Of a stretch of 64,000 nucleotides of DNA, positions 15,081 to 22,156 are shown one piece after another. The DNA is from Alicyclobacillus acidocaldarius subsp. acidocaldarius Tc-4-1. Its GTDB lineage: Bacteria > Bacillota > Bacilli > Alicyclobacillales > Alicyclobacillaceae. The position numbers and the translations under genes are program-made. Under the pieces are notes generated by a model. It made no database searches. It saw only the letters and a list, made by a program, of their open reading frames with translations, and had not been told where the DNA came from. The stretch covers positions 2,195,572 to 2,259,571 of the forward strand of contig NC_017167.1 of NCBI RefSeq assembly GCF_000219875.1, read 5' to 3'. The first letter of the stretch is position 1. Every line of letters begins with the position of its first letter.

Positions 15081-15260
15081 TCAGAAGCTTCCTTTCACCA
15101 GACCGATGACGACCAGGACAAGCATGATGGCGATGTACACCCGGAGTCCCCAGAACACCGCCTTCACCCACCCTTTCACCTGAGCGCGCGCCAGTGGCTC
15201 TGTGGGCGAGATCGGCGCTCGAGAGGTGAAATCCATCATCACGTTTTCCTTCCGGTTCAT
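15081..15260 (-). CDS. Small membrane protein (59 aa) linked to the NRAMP-like transporter
   Basis: ATG at 15260 behind a strong AGGGGG, 13 bases after the transporter stop codon, on the same strand. The N-terminal half is polar with prolines (SRAPISPTEPLARAQ). The C-terminal half has one amphipathic turn (VKGWVKAVFWGLR) and then a clear transmembrane helix (VYIAIMLVLVVIGLV) ending in KGSF. It is the last gene of the M-box-controlled unit. Too short for any family I recognise. Position and size suggest an accessory or regulatory subunit, but this is inference. Confidence 0.7.
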   Translation of the reverse strand: MNRKENVMMDFTSRAPISPTEPLARAQVKGWVKAVFWGLRVYIAIMLVLVVIGLVKGSF

Positions 15261-15273
15261 GATTCACACCCCC

Positions 15274-16620
15274 TCAGAATAAGTGCGGAAAGATCACCGT
15301 CAGGCCATACAGACCGTTCAACACGACCAGAAGGCCAATGATGACGAAGCCAGAGACGTTCTGCCACGTGCGGTTGACGTGTTGGCCCATCACCTCGCGG
15401 TCATTCAGCAGAAGCATCAGGAACATGAGCGCCGCCGGCATGAAGATGGACGCGATGACCTGCACAATCATGTTCAAGAAGCCAAGGGGCGCGTGTGGAA
15501 TGAGGACAATCGCGGCCGCAATCACAGCGCTCGCGATGCCGGGCACATAAAATTTCCAGGCCAGGCGCGCCGGCATATTGATGCTCTTCGGCCAGTGGAA
15601 GGCCTCTCCCATTGCCCAAGACGTGCTTGCCGTCAATGCGATGGCGGCGATGAGCCCCGCTTCGACCAGCCCGAGCGCGAACAGGCGTTCTCCGACTGGG
15701 CCAATCTTGGCGCCAAGCAGATTCAAAATGCCGGTGATGTCCAAGTTCATGCCGTGCGAGCCGTGCATGACCGTGCCAGTGAGGACCATGATGGCGCAGG
15801 CCACCACAATCATCGCCAGTGTGCCGAGCGCCGTGTCCAGCTGACCGTGCCGAATGTCCCGCTCGGTGAGCCCTTTGTCGACCACGGACGACTGCTGGAA
15901 GAACAGCATCCACGGCGCAATGGTGGTGCCGAAGTTAGCCAACACAATGAACAAAAACGAAGCCGTGAACCCACCGGGTATGTTCCAATTGACAAAAGCA
16001 TCAGCCACAGCCGACCAGTGCGGCTTTGCCATAAACATGAGCGGGATAAAGATGAGGTTCCCCGCCGCAATCCACAGCGCGATGCGCTCCCACGTGTAGT
16101 ACCGCAAGACGAGGAGCGCGAACACATCGATAGCGAGCGCAATGGATTCGCTGAGCCAGCCCGGTACACCAAACACGCCCATCCCGATTTTAATCCCGAT
16201 GAACTCGGTCACGAGCGTGAGCACGTTCGCCACGACGAGATCGATCAGGGAAAACCAGCCCCAGAAGGCCCCGTACCGCCCCCAGATCATCTCCGCATGG
16301 CCGCGGCGCGTCACGGCGCCCAACCGGACCGTCATTTCCTGAACAACGTAGGCGATAAACCCTGCGATGATCAGCGACGGGATGAAGAAGCCAATGCCGT
16401 ACGTGGCCCCTGTCTGCGCGTAGGTAATGACGCCGCCAGCGTCGTTATCGGCTATCATCGTCAACACGCCCGGGCCTATCAGCACCAACAAAAGACGAAG
16501 GCGCGCCCAAAAGCCGCGCTTGCTGTAGAGGCGGGCCACTCTGGCCATATCCTTTGCCCGGAGCTCGCGCTCCAGTTCATGCAAATCCTGAGTTGCGTAC
16601 ACATTTGCGTTGCGAGCCAT
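15274..16620 (-). CDS. NRAMP-related divalent cation transporter, probably Mg2+
   Basis: 448 residues, about 11 membrane segments. SLC11/NRAMP family, but the helix-1 DPGN motif is replaced by DNDAGG (residues 58-63). In helix 6 the metal-selective Met of the usual MPH motif is replaced in IAPWM (residues 234-238). Loss of that Met is a mark of the NRAMP-related magnesium transporter clade. The M-box riboswitch upstream independently points to Mg2+. ATG at 16620 is preferred, with AGGGGGG eight bases upstream; longer frames run into the leader. A 59-aa membrane protein follows. Confidence 0.88.
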   Translation of the reverse strand: MARNANVYATQDLHELERELRAKDMARVARLYSKRGFWARLRLLLVLIGPGVLTMIADNDAGGVITYAQTGATYGIGFFIPSLIIAGFIAYVVQEMTVRLGAVTRRGHAEMIWGRYGAFWGWFSLIDLVVANVLTLVTEFIGIKIGMGVFGVPGWLSESIALAIDVFALLVLRYYTWERIALWIAAGNLIFIPLMFMAKPHWSAVADAFVNWNIPGGFTASFLFIVLANFGTTIAPWMLFFQQSSVVDKGLTERDIRHGQLDTALGTLAMIVVACAIMVLTGTVMHGSHGMNLDITGILNLLGAKIGPVGERLFALGLVEAGLIAAIALTASTSWAMGEAFHWPKSINMPARLAWKFYVPGIASAVIAAAIVLIPHAPLGFLNMIVQVIASIFMPAALMFLMLLLNDREVMGQHVNRTWQNVSGFVIIGLLVVLNGLYGLTVIFPHLF

Positions 16621-16750
16621 GACAATCCCCCCTGGACGGGCGATGGGCAGGAAGTCCCCACGCCCCAATATGATGCAATCCATAGAAAACCACACAACCA
16701 CCTGTTTCCAGCACTGCGAACATGGGGCGACTACTCGACGGACTGTCCAT
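16577..16750 (-). CDS. Candidate upstream ORF overlapping the Mg2+ transporter start
   Basis: A 57-codon ORF beginning ATG at 16750 with an excellent ribosome binding site (AAGGAGGAGG, eight bases upstream) inside the M-box leader, downstream of the terminator. It starts MDSPSSSRPMFAVLETGG and ends 44 bases inside the transporter gene in another frame. Such an arrangement could couple or compete with translation of the transporter, as leader peptides do in other Mg2+ genes. The peptide has no recognisable domain, so it may be regulatory only, or the RBS may be fortuitous. Confidence 0.4.
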   Translation of the reverse strand: MDSPSSSRPMFAVLETGGCVVFYGLHHIGAWGLPAHRPSRGDCHGSQRKCVRNSGFA

Positions 16751-16789
16751 ACCCATCACCTCCTCCAAGGTTTTGATCATGGCCCAATG

Positions 16790-16845
16790 AAAAACCCCCT
16801 GGCGAACCAGGGGGCACACGCAGCCGTATGCACATCCCCCTGGTT
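16790..16845 (-). terminator. M-box expression platform: terminator and antiterminator
   Basis: The terminator is CCCCCTGG, loop TTCG, CCAGGGGG, TTTTT (RC of 16790-16814). An upstream CCAGGGGG (RC of 16836-16843) can pair with the same CCCCCTGG (RC of 16807-16814), giving a mutually exclusive antiterminator enclosing ATGTGCATACGGCTGCGT. This is a classic ligand-off/ligand-on switch. Confidence 0.85.
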
Positions 16846-16874
16846 GAGCTTTGGCACTATACGACGTAGGGATC

Positions 16875-16995
16875 ACCCAGCCACGTTAGGTAAAGCCTTA
16901 AGCCGGCCATACCTGTTCTACCCATTGGCGTGTCTCCACGTTTCCGGGCAGTGGCTTGTGTTCGTATAGTAGCCTCGCCTAACGAGGAACGCATC
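16875..16995 (-). promoter_or_regulatory. M-box (ykoK) magnesium riboswitch aptamer
   Basis: Minus-strand sequence follows the M-box consensus step by step: CGTTAGGCGAGGCT, ACAAGCCACTGCCCGGAAAC, GTGGAGACACGCCAATGGGT, AGAACAGGTATGGCCGGCTT, and closing CCTAACG that pairs with the initial CGTTAGG. Known behaviour: high Mg2+ folds the aptamer and favours the downstream terminator. It controls the NRAMP-related transporter and the 59-aa protein. Confidence 0.93.
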
Positions 16996-17195: not shown

Positions 17196-18524
17196 TCACG
17201 CCTGAAGAGCCGTCTGAACGAGCGTGGCCAGCGTGAGTGCGACGAGCAACCCTACCATCGCCCATCCCCAGATGCGCCCCCACCATTTCGTGCGATACGG
17301 CCCCATCAGATCCCTATCACTGGTCATCAGGACCAGAAAGATGAGGAGCGGCGTCATCAGCACACCACCCATGACCTGCGTGACGATGGAAATCAGATTG
17401 AGGGGCAGGTGCGGAACCAAAATGGCTAGTGCGGCGATCACCAAACTTCCTGCGTAGATGGCATAGAATTTGGGCGCTTGCCGTACTTTGTCATTGAGGC
17501 TCTTGGACCAGCCAAACAGTTCCGCGATGCTCCAGGACGACGAGAGCGACACCGTGATCGAAGCTAAAAATCCCGCGTCAAACAATCCAATTCCAAAGAG
17601 CGTTGCACCCACACGCCCCACCGTATGCGTCAGACCGCCGATAATGTCCGAAGGTCCAAGGCTCGTGACATGCTGCAGATGGCCGTACAGAGACGCACCA
17701 CAGACAATGATGGCAGCGGCAATCACGGCCTGCATGATACAACCGAACGCCGTGTCGATCCGGCCCAACCTGAGCTCGCGGGCGCTGACCCCTTTGTCGA
17801 TAGCCCCGCTGCCCTGGAAGAAAATCATCCAAGGCGCGATGGCGTTCCCCACCGTCGCAATCACAAACCAGGTCACATCCCCCCTGAGGGAACCAGGGAC
17901 GTTCCAAGTCGCAAACGCCCTCCCTATCGCCTCAAGACTTGGATGCGTCATCCCCGCTACCACAAGAAAGACGACGTTCAACGCGCCAATGACGAGGGCG
18001 ATGCGCTCTTTCGTGAAGTAGCCGGTGAACACCACGAACGAGATCACAAAGATCAAGCACAGGAGGTCGGCAATCCACATGGGAATTCCAAGCATCTCAA
18101 GCCCCGCGGACATGCCGATGAATTCAGTGATGAGCGTCAACAAATTTTCCAACGCGAGGGTCGTCACGTGATAGTATCCCCAAAACTTTCCATACCTTCG
18201 TTGTGCGAGTCGCGAGATGCCTTCCTGGGTCACCGCGCTGAGGCGCATACTCATCTCCTGAACGGTGAACGTGAGGACCGCAAGACACAACACCAGGGGC
18301 ACAAACAGCCCGATGCCAAACTGGACACCTGTGGCCGTGTAGGAGATGACGCCACCTGCGTCGTTGTCCGCCAATGCGGCTAGAAATCCAGGGCCCAAAA
18401 GGATCCAGAACGACCACAGATACCGCCGTACCCCCTTTTTCGGACTCGCTAAGGACATCTGCTGGCCTCTGGACGCGGCATCCGATCGCGCCTCGGCACG
18501 CGATGTTGCAGAGCTTATCTCCAT
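17196..18524 (-). CDS. Second NRAMP-related divalent cation transporter
   Basis: 442 residues, paralogous to the M-box-controlled gene downstream. It shares the altered helix-1 motif DNDAGG (residues 53-58) and helix-6 IAPWM, so it also lacks the transition-metal-selective Met of classical NRAMPs. Mg2+ or another hard cation is a reasonable substrate, but no M-box is visible here. ATG at 18524 follows AGGGGG; the longer frame to 18815 crosses the divergent promoter region and is rejected. Divergent to an XRE-DUF1232 gene that could regulate it. Confidence 0.8.
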   Translation of the reverse strand: MEISSATSRAEARSDAASRGQQMSLASPKKGVRRYLWSFWILLGPGFLAALADNDAGGVISYTATGVQFGIGLFVPLVLCLAVLTFTVQEMSMRLSAVTQEGISRLAQRRYGKFWGYYHVTTLALENLLTLITEFIGMSAGLEMLGIPMWIADLLCLIFVISFVVFTGYFTKERIALVIGALNVVFLVVAGMTHPSLEAIGRAFATWNVPGSLRGDVTWFVIATVGNAIAPWMIFFQGSGAIDKGVSARELRLGRIDTAFGCIMQAVIAAAIIVCGASLYGHLQHVTSLGPSDIIGGLTHTVGRVGATLFGIGLFDAGFLASITVSLSSSWSIAELFGWSKSLNDKVRQAPKFYAIYAGSLVIAALAILVPHLPLNLISIVTQVMGGVLMTPLLIFLVLMTSDRDLMGPYRTKWWGRIWGWAMVGLLVALTLATLVQTALQA

Positions 18525-18699: not shown

Positions 18700-19356
18700 A
18701 TGATGACATCCCTGGAAGAGGCCGTGAAGACCTTGCTGAGACGCCGCTCGATGTCCATGCGCCAGTTGGCCGCCGCTACGGGGATCAGCGTCAGCACGAT
18801 TTCGAAGATGATCACCGGGAAACAGAGAGTGAACTTGGACTACCTGCGGCGCATCGCAGAGGCACTCGGCGTGCCACCGCTCTCCCTGGCGGAAGCCGCT
18901 GGGCTCCCCCTCATCACGGAGCCAATGGCGCCAGCCGATGGCGATGGCCAGGCCTTGATGAACGCGCTTCTCGAGTACCTAGGTCTTGGGAATCTGAATG
19001 TTCTACGGACAGAAATCGAACGGGAGCTTGAAAAATATGAAGCATACGCGCAGACGGAGGAGGGGCAACAATTCATTGCAGAAAAATACGATGCCAAACG
19101 AGGTCAAATTCAAGGCATCGGGCACTTTCTCCGCGATCTCGACGACATCTACGATCGATTTTCTCGGCCGGACACACCTGAGGATGAAAGGCGAATCTTG
19201 GCGAGCGGCATTCTATACTTCTTGCTCGCCACAGACGCCATTCCGGATTATCTGTTTCCTGCGGGATATTTAGATGACGCGATCGCCATACAAATGGTGC
19301 GCGAACGACTTGTGCGCCGCCGGGAAATGAAGAGCCAGGGCTCAGACGGATCCTGA
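18700..19356 (+). CDS. XRE-family HTH protein fused to a DUF1232 (YkvA-like) domain
   Basis: 218 residues. Residues 10-65 form a Cro/CI-type helix-turn-helix (MRQLAAATGISVSTISKMIT). A helical, charged linker follows. The C-terminal region contains the DUF1232 core ILYFLLATDAIPDYLFP with the conserved DAIPD motif and a downstream YLDDA. DUF1232 is a small hydrophobic module of unknown role in YkvA-like proteins, possibly membrane-associated. The fusion could link DNA binding to a membrane signal. Divergent to an NRAMP-like transporter gene. Confidence 0.85.
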   Translation: MMTSLEEAVKTLLRRRSMSMRQLAAATGISVSTISKMITGKQRVNLDYLRRIAEALGVPPLSLAEAAGLPLITEPMAPADGDGQALMNALLEYLGLGNLNVLRTEIERELEKYEAYAQTEEGQQFIAEKYDAKRGQIQGIGHFLRDLDDIYDRFSRPDTPEDERRILASGILYFLLATDAIPDYLFPAGYLDDAIAIQMVRERLVRRREMKSQGSDGS

Positions 19357-19596: not shown

Positions 19597-20139
19597 TCAA
19601 CCTCTGGGTCGCCCGTTGAAACTCCGAAGGCCGGAGCATTCGTCTTGCTTCTCCAACAGCGCGTGGAGGCGTTCGGCATGGAGCAGGAGTTCTTCCGCAG
19701 CTTCCATCTCCTGCTCGCTCTGGTCCCGCAGGGCCCGAAGCCCGTCCTCCAATTGTCCAACCGTTTGTTGCACTTTCGCCAACAGACTTGCCATAGAACG
19801 CGCCGATTCGGCCATCCGCTCCGACCATGTCCACAGATCGCGAGCCACCGTTCCCACCAAATTCTCATCGAGGCGATGGCGGCTGATCTCCACGCTCAAC
19901 GTGACCGCCATCTTCCGCAAAGCGTTTGACGCGCTCGCAATCGCCTGACTGCTTTCCCGAACGGAGGCGGAGAGCGGAGAGAGACGCTCCCACAAGCCCC
20001 ACAGATCTTGCAAAGCGGCTTCAGTCGTTCGGCGGCGCTCAAGCAGAGGCTCCAGGGCCAAAACGAAATCCCAGACGGCCGCGTCGAACGCCCGACAATC
20101 CATGGAGGGTTCCATGCCCATCCCGCCCTTTGGGCTCAA
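19597..20139 (-). CDS. Alpha-helical coiled-coil protein of unknown function
   Basis: 180 residues, no signal or membrane segment. Almost the whole chain is predicted helical, with heptad-like stretches (MAESARSMASLLAKVQQTVG and EQEMEAAEELLLHAERLHAL). It resembles the helical signalling region of methyl-accepting proteins in composition only. TTG start at 20139 overlaps the stop of the DUF1003 gene by four bases (TTGA), so translation is coupled; ATG at 20121 or 20115 are alternatives. Third gene of the operon with the CAAX-protease/GrpB fusion. Confidence 0.7.
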   Translation of the reverse strand: MSPKGGMGMEPSMDCRAFDAAVWDFVLALEPLLERRRTTEAALQDLWGLWERLSPLSASVRESSQAIASASNALRKMAVTLSVEISRHRLDENLVGTVARDLWTWSERMAESARSMASLLAKVQQTVGQLEDGLRALRDQSEQEMEAAEELLLHAERLHALLEKQDECSGLRSFNGRPRG

Positions 20140-20792
20140 GTGTTTTCCTGTTCCGAATTCTTCACCTCGTTTTGACTTCCTTCTTCAACCCTTTGTCCGC
20201 TTCCAACCACTGCACGTTTCGCATTCGATCGTTCCTCCTGTTGTTGGAGCACCACGGCATCCAAACGCTTCAGCAGGCGCTCCAACTGCAGCAACTTACC
20301 TTCAATTCGGTGCAAATGGCTCTGCATATCATCAATTTCTTGTTCAGCCTTATAGTTAATCGCGAAGTCGATGATGGCTTCGTGTTTGTCACGAGCAGCC
20401 TGTCGATTCTGACTCATCATGATGATGGGCGCTTGAAAGGCGGCCAAGAACGACAGGCAAAGGTTCAGGAGAATAAACGGAGGCGGATCGAAGTGAAATC
20501 TCCGCGTGCCCGGTACCGCGTTCCACACCATCCACGAAACGAGCAGTGTCGCAAAGATGATGATAAATGTCCAACTTCCTCCAAATGCCGCGATGCGATC
20601 CGCCAACTTGTCAGACCACTTCGTCTTGCGCTGATACTCCTCGTCCAACATGGACAGGATGTTTTCTTCGTATAAGTTGACCAGCCGCGCGATGCGCTTG
20701 GCGTCGCCCTCATTAATCGGGATGTCGAAACCTTCCAAGTTGGCGTTGTCGTCATCGTGATCCGTGTATACGTAGTAATACCGCTTGGCCAT
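20136..20792 (-). CDS. DUF1003 membrane protein
   Basis: 218 residues. Two membrane helices lie in the middle (WTFIIIFATLLVSWMVWNAV and FILLNLCLSFLAAFQAPIIM), followed by the DUF1003 hallmark APIIMMSQNRQAARDKHEA. The C-terminus forms a coiled coil (SHLHRIEGKLLQLERLLKRL) ending in a polar tail. The family is widespread and of unknown function. ATG at 20792 is used with GGAGGTGAGG upstream; that RBS overlaps the end of the preceding gene. Confidence 0.86.
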   Translation of the reverse strand: MAKRYYYVYTDHDDDNANLEGFDIPINEGDAKRIARLVNLYEENILSMLDEEYQRKTKWSDKLADRIAAFGGSWTFIIIFATLLVSWMVWNAVPGTRRFHFDPPPFILLNLCLSFLAAFQAPIIMMSQNRQAARDKHEAIIDFAINYKAEQEIDDMQSHLHRIEGKLLQLERLLKRLDAVVLQQQEERSNAKRAVVGSGQRVEEGSQNEVKNSEQENT

Positions 20793-20797
20793 CCACC

Positions 20798-22156
20798 TCA
20801 CCTCCATCGTTGAGAGCGGTTCATACGCTTCCAGAGCGCATAAACCGTCCGTTTGCCTTCCATATATTGATCAAGCTGCACGCGGTGGTACTGGTGGACC
20901 CATCGCTCCTTATGAGATTCCCAATGCCGCAAAGCATCCGGCTGTGCCTGCAGGCGCCTCGTCCACGCGATGGCGGCTCGGCTATATCGATTTCCCGACT
21001 TCGCAATCTGCAAATGCACCGCAGGCCACGAATCCTCCGCCTCGCGCACCCAAAGCAAACGCCCTTTGACCCCGGCATTTCCGCAGAATTGATAGCCGCA
21101 TTGCTCGAGCGCTTGCCACTCTTCCCTGTGCAAGACGGGTCTGCGTAGCAAGACCAAGACATCGATGGCGTCGTTCGCCATGGCGCCCTCGATCGCGGTC
21201 GTGCCGATGTGCCGGATCGAACAATACACGCGCCGATGAAACACGCGGGAGATCAACTCCCGCTCCCGTTCGAACGCCAAAAGGTGCCTCGTGCTGACTA
21301 CCGTGAGCTCAACGGGCACGCGAACAGCGCCCGGCGCGCGAAACCCGAATTGACGACGGACGAGCGCAACGCCGAGCCACGATAGAAATGCGACAAACGA
21401 AGCCGTGATGAACGCCGCGGAGACCGTCTCGTTCTGCGTCGACAGCCACGTGACCCAGGCGTCGTACACGCTGTGCACGACCATGATCAGAAGAATGCGG
21501 CCCGTGAGAATGGCCATGAGCGCCAAGATCAAGCCCAAACTGCTAAACATGTACCACGCTTGAAGGCGTTCTTGGGTAAACTCGAGGATGTGGCCGCTTC
21601 CGAACGCCAGAGCACTCAGCAATAACGCGGTCACCAGCGCTGACATTCGGACGCTTGGCGTGTCCCACCACCGCCTTAACACAGCGCGGAAGAGCGCGAT
21701 CACGGCAATCACGCAACTCCAACGCCACATCTCCTCGAGGCCAGCCACCACGCTCACCGCGTAGTCCACCCATGTCACATGGGACGTCACGTTGCTTTGA
21801 TTGAACCTTAGCGCTGCGCTCGCAGCATCTGCGGTTAGCTCCAAACACCCCATGAATGCAAGGGGAGTCAAACCGTACAAGTAACACCGCGTGATCATGC
21901 GCGCAAGGGGGCGCCTGAGTAAAATGCGAGATCGCAGCGGATCCCATGTGCGGAACAGAGCGCGCCGAAGGGAGGGGAGCAAGATCAACAAGCTCAGCAC
22001 GCTGAGCCCGAGATACACCTCAGCAATCCACAGCACCTGGCCGCCGTCAAACAGATTGGCGAACGTTGCGAACGACGCAAAGAGGATGGCGTAACCCACC
22101 TGCCACCCACGCATCTCCGCGACCAAACGTTCGCACAACTCATATAGGCGAGTCAC
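20798..22156 (-). CDS. CPBP (CAAX protease-like) membrane domain fused to a GrpB nucleotidyltransferase-like domain
   Basis: 452 residues if started at GTG 22156, which has GGAGGAT six bases upstream. The first 280 residues contain about eight membrane helices with CPBP intramembrane-protease motifs: GLEEMWRW (Glu-Glu and Arg, about 141-145), FGSGHILEF (His about 189) and VVHSVYDAW (His about 228). From about residue 285 a soluble GrpB-like domain starts, with the core HIGTTAIEGAMANDAIDVLV. GrpB is a nucleotidyltransferase-fold family of unclear role. The fusion is unusual. First gene of a three-gene operon. Confidence 0.78.
   Translation of the reverse strand: MTRLYELCERLVAEMRGWQVGYAILFASFATFANLFDGGQVLWIAEVYLGLSVLSLLILLPSLRRALFRTWDPLRSRILLRRPLARMITRCYLYGLTPLAFMGCLELTADAASAALRFNQSNVTSHVTWVDYAVSVVAGLEEMWRWSCVIAVIALFRAVLRRWWDTPSVRMSALVTALLLSALAFGSGHILEFTQERLQAWYMFSSLGLILALMAILTGRILLIMVVHSVYDAWVTWLSTQNETVSAAFITASFVAFLSWLGVALVRRQFGFRAPGAVRVPVELTVVSTRHLLAFERERELISRVFHRRVYCSIRHIGTTAIEGAMANDAIDVLVLLRRPVLHREEWQALEQCGYQFCGNAGVKGRLLWVREAEDSWPAVHLQIAKSGNRYSRAAIAWTRRLQAQPDALRHWESHKERWVHQYHRVQLDQYMEGKRTVYALWKRMNRSQRWR

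Follow-up and report, generated by a model that had tools for sequence, protein, structure and literature searches.

A probable Mg2+-uptake operon of an Alicyclobacillus combining an M-box, an Nramp-related transporter, a candidate one-helix partner and a recurrent leader ORF

The locus described here probably serves Mg2+ import under M-box control, with a small membrane protein as functional partner of the transporter. It lies in a 64-kb window (the whole stretch of DNA that was analysed) from the finished 3.12-Mb genome of a thermoacidophilic Alicyclobacillus, and the nearest named relatives, judged by the transporter NRMT1, are A. sendaiensis, A. fructus and A. mali (95-97% identity). The initial annotation had reported an M-box before an NRAMP homologue and read the pair as a Mg2+ importer; the observation is confirmed and the Mg2+-import reading is supported. 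The pairing of an M-box with an NRMT for Mg2+ is already published, and the importer claim itself is not new. Two parts of the locus, the small membrane protein and the M-box leader peptide, turned up no description in the literature search; neither these two nor the tandem paralogue NRMT2 figured in the initial annotation. As we picture it, the locus would be the main Mg2+-uptake operon of this Alicyclobacillus, made up of NRMT1 and a one-helix partner. Its parts are as follows.

15081-15260, minus strand: small single-helix membrane protein, 59 aa (family A1; dN/dS and linkage discussed below)
15274-16620, minus strand: NRMT1, putative Nramp-related Mg2+ transporter, 448 aa (PF01566, E 2e-63)
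16577-16750, minus strand: upstream ORF (uORF) MDSPSSSRPM..., 57 aa, with a strong SD, overlapping the NRMT1 start
16639-16648, minus strand: 3' arm of a putative long-range helix, GCCCAUCGCC, just before the NRMT1 SD (16634-16625)
16751-16760, minus strand: 5' arm of the same helix, GGUGAUGGGU, in the uORF start region, pairing with 16639-16648
16790-16814, minus strand: intrinsic terminator and U run (-16.2 kcal/mol; 9 pairs in the pattern scan)
16805-16845, minus strand: antiterminator hairpin (-25.1 kcal/mol)
16830-16993, minus strand: M-box (Mg2+) aptamer (Rfam RF00380, 156.3 bits, E 8.1e-36)

The riboswitch had been placed at 16875-16995 as a near-complete M-box. The aptamer is real and in fact complete, but that extent misses the 3' strand of P1. 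On the minus strand the Rfam covariance model, which had been proposed as a check, matches over its full length (model positions 1-169; 156.3 bits against a gathering score of 44, E 8e-36), and this M-box is the only RF00380 match in the whole genome. The switchable terminator and antiterminator are also there: both hairpins are present, they are mutually exclusive, and they overlap via CCCCCUGGUU, which is common to both. The terminator is made up of CCCCCUGG-UUCG-CCAGGGGG and U5. The 5' arm of the antiterminator, AACCAGGGGG, doubles as the strand closing P1 in the aptamer, and P1 competes with the antiterminator for it. Read from its sequence, this arrangement is a standard M-box switch that turns expression off at high Mg2+. 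With plentiful cytosolic Mg2+ the M-box would fold, P1 would take AACCAGGGGG and the terminator would form, leaving the operon off; at low Mg2+ the antiterminator would form and transcription would read through. A sigma-70 promoter scan of the locus found no promoter.

The NRMT1 ORF spans 15274-16701, with the ATG at 16620, preceded by AGGGGGG, as its likely start. The downstream gene had been called an NRAMP homologue, which the PF01566 match bears out, and the DNDAGG and APWM motifs noted at the time are both present (the latter as TTIAPWM), with the Met replaced by Ala. The canonical Nramp/MntH motifs DPGN and MPH are absent, DAGG and APWM standing in their place, and the protein scores 116 bits against the NCBIfam MntH model, below the cut-off of 430. 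In the magnesium transporter EleNRMT the metal site is DxxG-TxxA, where classical Nramps carry DxxN-AxxM; Mg2+ transport and structure (PDB 7qia/7qji) have been shown for this protein, which carries Mn2+ as well (PMC8806188). The NRMT1 site (DAGG, TTIA/TTIAPW) is exactly that of EleNRMT, whereas MntH has DPGN/MPH, and in an alignment to 7qia and MntH both helix-6b His are replaced, by Trp and Gln. Without the transition-metal Met and both of these His, NRMT1 is probably without proton coupling, as EleNRMT is. It would carry partly hydrated Mg2+ via the DxxG-TxxA site. EleNRMT 7qia is also the closest solved structure by sequence (E 2e-56) and the best fold match of the predicted NRMT1 model (Foldseek E 8.5e-19, target TM-score 0.88). 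In a maximum-likelihood tree the NRMT-like proteins, NRMT1 included, are separated from MntH by a branch with 100/100 support, so that the phylogeny, another of the proposed checks, places NRMT1 on the NRMT side.

Genome content bears on the substrate. Profile searches of the whole genome found CorA, MgtE and MgtA all absent. As a hidden importer of the MgtA type, the best TIGR01524 match (433 bits, cut-off 611) was rejected as a SERCA-type Ca ATPase. A canonical MntH with DPGN and MPH is present elsewhere in the same genome (locus L153). The comparison was extended to 41 genomes of the window's own family, where MgtE is above cut-off in none (0/41) and CorA is absent from 16, 14 of which have an M-box. 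NRMT1 together with the small protein occurs in 10 of the 16 CorA-negative genomes and in 0 of the 25 CorA-positive ones, an exclusion with a Fisher value of 7e-6 when genomes are counted as independent, and one that involves three genera. A point against is that in one 97%-complete family genome (G035) none of CorA, MgtE and M-box was found. Because of its site, its place in the tree, the missing CorA, MgtE and MgtA, the separate MntH and the family pattern, NRMT1 is the strongest candidate for main Mg2+ importer of this genome and is perhaps its only one; the upstream paralogue NRMT2 may share Mg2+ uptake with it. The agreement of RNA and protein evidence suggested at the outset holds, in that the M-box, the EleNRMT-like site and the tree all favour Mg2+ import, and together with the genome content they support Mg2+ as the substrate that we infer for NRMT1. 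In Clostridium acetobutylicum, Mg2+ import by an M-box-controlled NrmT was found by complementation (PMC4072509), and NRMT1 is thus a new case of a known type.

The small ORF begins 13 bases past the NRMT1 stop codon and encodes one hydrophobic helix. It is under purifying selection (dN/dS 0.06-0.19 among Alicyclobacillus copies), and orthologues lie 10-220 nt 3' of NRMT1 in almost all Bacillota loci as well as in Thiomonas-like Proteobacteria, with an invariant family core of FWGLRxY...M...V. Searches of Pfam, NCBIfam, PHROGs and PDB gave nothing convincing for it, and a literature search that covered few subscription papers found no description. A profile of the small protein matched eight times in 398 Bacillota genomes, and seven of the matches are directly 3' of an NRMT-like gene; the eighth (L148) lies inside an unrelated 511-aa protein and was discarded. 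There is no MgtE_N gene beside NRMT1, just the 59-aa ORF; PRC-MgtE_N-CBS partners are found in loci L132 and L057. Beside NRMT2 no small protein was found.

Relatives of the small protein stand next to NRMTs in at least five phyla. As an example, Planctomycetota, Verrucomicrobiota, Thermodesulfobacteriota and others have the order TxxT-type NRMT, PRC-MgtE_N-CBS gene, small protein, and this TxxT-type form matches the small-protein profile at 96% (E 1.4e-9). An NRMT-like clade with GENDAPSMLSY in helix 1 and a DxxS-AxxT site (L118, L119, L121, L146, L147, L149) has a longer, WGLR-type small protein of its own (profile match 98%, E 7e-14). In the third clade, the M-box-controlled NRMT-B, the C-terminus is about 90 residues longer and adds an extra helix, a loop and a last helix. 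The profile of this tail matches the small protein at 63% (E 7e-5) and the TxxT form at 86% (E 5e-6); 33 other windows along NRMT-B, taken as a control, score at most 1.3%. To judge from these profiles, the small protein is fused to the transporter C-terminus in the sister clade NRMT-B, where the extra helix would return the chain to the side at which a start of the small protein is expected, given the basic residues that precede its helix. The linkage across phyla, together with the fusion, argues for a physical partnership, short of proof. The 59-aa protein is thus a probable second NRMT subunit, and it would bind NRMT1 via its LRxY helix, acting on stability or gating. A fold model of NRMT with the small protein reached a pLDDT of 44 with 8 alignment rows and 82.9 with 57; small-protein rows added alone to the transporter alignment were misplaced. 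By VIA-align, matches of the fold model to NRAMP1, DMT1 and EcoDMT extend across the small helix. The model was set aside as evidence of contacts, since its stop read-through linker biases the place and direction of the helix, and nothing was drawn from it.

Between the terminator and NRMT1 sits the uORF (ATG 16750). It is found at the same place in nearly every Bacillota NRMT1 leader examined, and also in NRMT-B and DUF1003 leaders behind M-boxes. Conservation is confined to roughly nine codons at its start, with the pattern M-D-x-(G/D/E)-P or M-(S/N/T)-x-D-P. The orthologous uORF starts of 46 leaders all have an acidic residue within positions 2-4 (46/46), and 43/46 have a Pro within positions 3-5 (the Pro is lost in loci L020, L022 and L026), against a background for an acid-and-Pro start of 7.9% of 1,138 SD-led starts in the same DNA. 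The codons vary synonymously in these leaders (GAC or GAT for Asp2; CCT, CCA, CCG or CCC for Pro). Across the 41 family genomes the start pattern has 23 matches, all before Mg-related genes, and the reversed pattern has 0; 21 of the 23 are just behind an M-box, and the other 2 are before NRMT-B genes without one. Such a uORF is absent before CorA (L129, L131) and PRC-MgtE_N (L132) in the same family. In the 398 Bacillota genomes the pattern has 11 matches (3 for the reversed pattern), 8 of them behind Rfam M-boxes controlling PRC-MgtE_N genes, CorA and MgtE, with starts such as MDSGPSPE, MDTDPDGR, MDVAPSYF, MDSGPYSH and MDPDPGSS. Matches L158 and L159 are real gene starts and hence chance. The mgtE M-box leader of Bacillus velezensis has MDSPHSSMSEE... 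and the mgtA M-box leader of Listeria has MDHHQGEEVEEPD..., in both cases some 138 nt ahead of the gene; no clear uORF was seen in two Enterococcus M-box leaders that were inspected. By its sequence pattern, then, this type of uORF recurs behind M-boxes of NRMT, DUF1003, MgtE_N, CorA and MgtE genes. No description of a Bacillota M-box uORF turned up in the literature search, which covered few subscription papers.

Most leaders fold well between the SD of the uORF and the start of the main gene (mean z -2.8, n=46; z -3.9 in the window). Among the Alicyclobacillaceae leaders, bases at the uORF start pair with a segment immediately ahead of the main SD; the positions are constant relative to the uORF, and several pair types occur. 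In a trimmed 21-row alignment 71% of the cells are paired, compared with 42-55% in slid versions, and covariation scores 0.245 in register and at most 0.179 when slid; no shuffle reached 0.245. De novo, RNAalifold recovers a 5-pair core only from the same alignment, and on the whole untrimmed region it finds no structure. The predicted long-range helix is supported by these alignments, with 5 pairs predicted de novo. After read-through the mRNA would present the M-D-S-P ORF with its start region paired just before the NRMT1 ribosome-binding site. The uORF shares the trait of the MgtL/MgtQ leaders (SD-led, with acid and Pro in early codons, before a Mg2+ transporter), and by this likeness we infer that there is possibly a second, translational tier of Mg2+ control resembling theirs. 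At low Mg2+ ribosomes would lose their hold on the acidic and Pro-containing uORF start, leading to more NRMT1 translation. A Mg2+-sensing role for the peptide, argued by analogy, has in our judgement a little less than an even chance.

Each part of this reading has a rival. Taken as a whole, the locus might be an ordinary Clostridium-like M-box/NRMT pair, the small ORF and uORF being incidental or lineage-specific and having no Mg2+ role. Such pairs are published (PMC4072509), the structure and transport of a homologue are known (PMC8806188), and the roles given here to the two small ORFs rest on sequence. It is an improbable account all the same, as the small ORF is under purifying selection, tied to NRMT-like genes in several phyla and once fused, and the uORF recurs behind M-boxes of unrelated transporters. 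Even less probable is that NRMT1 serves chiefly for Mn2+ or brings in several divalent ions, and that the M-box merely ties its expression to Mg2+ status. EleNRMT does carry Mn2+ too (PMC8806188), and the NrmT of Acidobacterium capsulatum, which lacks a riboswitch, behaved as a Mn2+ transporter and rescued a Mn2+ mutant (PMC4072509); against this stand the separate canonical MntH, the absence of CorA, MgtE and MgtA, and a site identical to that of EleNRMT.

The two small ORFs leave more room for alternatives. The uORF start could be an RNA element, shaping a hairpin that makes transporter translation follow ribosome traffic and is itself independent of Mg2+, and this is a real, minority possibility: the start region is part of the long-range helix, and most of each uORF past about nine codons is unconserved. 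An RNA element alone fits less well with Asp2 and Pro being kept by synonymous codons in the 46 leaders, and with Asp/Pro being kept in distant Bacillota where the downstream sequence is different. As to the small protein, one-helix proteins often regulate transporters, and MgtS, KdpF and similar one-helix proteins are encoded with, or act on, an ion transporter. MgtS is reportedly a regulator or assembly factor of MgtA, and the 59-aa protein may act in that way and not as a stoichiometric subunit, as might be thought from NRMT2 having no such neighbour. We consider this somewhat unlikely, given that the fused form in NRMT-B, preceded by an additional helix that sets the start back to N-in, implies one small-protein copy per transporter in that clade.

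The reading of a Mg2+ importer with a small partner matters in several ways. As an importer NRMT1 bears out an idea that was already known, and the setting is a useful one: in a bacterium with neither CorA nor MgtE nor MgtA, an NRMT may be the sole Mg2+ importer, and a knockout would test this directly. Should the small protein prove to be a genuine subunit, work on NRMTs from these clades will have to include a partner that so far has no name. Should ribosome stability be the means by which the leader peptide senses Mg2+, a single mRNA would have two unrelated Mg2+ sensors in series, and the textbook M-box leader of Bacillus may then possess a further control step, one for which the literature search gave no description. 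Tentatively, both ideas could be generalised: many Bacillota M-box leaders, those of the Bacillus mgtE type included, would be tandem Mg2+ sensors (riboswitch, then an M-D-x-(D/E/G)-P ribosome-destabilising peptide), and most NRMTs outside the EleNRMT branch would be two-subunit transporters needing an LRxY one-helix protein, separate or fused.

It is worth recording several observations on the neighbourhood and on other loci. Upstream of NRMT1 the window has the following genes.

17196-18524, minus strand: NRMT2, tandem paralogue with DxxG-NxxA (PF01566, E 3e-58; 7qia, E 7e-60)
18700-19356, plus strand: HTH_3 and DUF1232 regulator, divergent from NRMT2
20136-20807, minus strand: DUF1003 membrane protein near the operon (a side observation)

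NRMT2 is without an M-box, forms its own clade in the tree and has Asn in place of the metal-site Thr of NRMTs. The HTH_3 and DUF1232 gene adjoins NRMT2-type genes in other genera too (L011, L100). In relatives (L126, L127, L138) an M-box with the same uORF lies directly before a DUF1003 gene, hinting at a role of DUF1003 in Mg2+ homeostasis; the literature search found no paper linking DUF1003 to magnesium. The same genome has a further Nramp relative (L152, C1:1503148-1504164) with DAGC and AVIMPW, NRMT-like otherwise and with the selectivity Met retained. No M-box was found before the Thiomonas NRMT loci; the Thiomonas-like loci L037-L054 have a different conserved ORF, SD-led and about 65 aa long (MFVFKK.../MLVFKK...), about 200-260 nt before the NRMT. 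Tandem M-boxes (C1:1539093-1539258 and 1539380-1539557) precede one NRMT-B gene in G006 (L128), and the NRMT-B gene of L151 (G029 C22) has an MDSGPS uORF with no recognisable M-box. On Enterococcus plasmids an Rfam M-box (L169) or M-box-like DNA (L171) is found before cell-wall genes (FtsW/RodA family; LCP family).

Several known systems resemble the locus in part. EleNRMT of Eggerthella lenta has the same DxxG-TxxA site and likewise lacks the helix-6 Met and both helix-6b His, but it shares 31% identity with NRMT1 and belongs to a different branch of the NRMT tree; its paper makes no mention of a riboswitch (PMC8806188), whereas NRMT1 has an M-box. The C. acetobutylicum NrmT genes (Ca_c0685, Ca_c3329) have, like NRMT1, an M-box and terminator switch before an Nramp-related gene. 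At the Clostridium loci an MgtE N-domain gene is mostly found alongside (PMC4072509); at NRMT1 it is the 59-aa protein instead, and the locus adds a uORF after the terminator and an upstream NRMT2 without an M-box, in a genome without CorA and MgtE. Partners of the MgtS and KdpF type resemble the 59-aa protein in having one helix and being tied to an ion transporter, a likeness by description only. MgtL and MgtQ of enterobacteria are, like the uORF, short ORFs with acidic and Pro first codons before a Mg2+ transporter. MgtL contains EPDP, and ribosomes are lost on it at low Mg2+ (PMC11282234). The Salmonella mgtQ ORF, a close parallel in function, has Asp2, Pro4 and Glu5 and overlaps alternative stem-loops that sequester the ribosome site of mgtB; the acidic codons of mgtQ lower its own translation and raise that of mgtB (PMC8092293). 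The NRMT1 uORF overlaps a predicted helix that may hide the ribosome site of its transporter. In contrast to both, the NRMT1 uORF follows an M-box terminator, and the likeness carries no claim of common descent. Mycobacterium tuberculosis also has a conserved uORF behind an M-box, uORF2/Rv1805A (PMC12810186). It is SD-led, as here, with its N-terminal part and one Pro conserved; the leader uses a translational platform and Rho, and the peptide is reported as mycobacterial only (PMC12810186), whereas at NRMT1 the uORF comes after an intrinsic terminator and encodes a different peptide.
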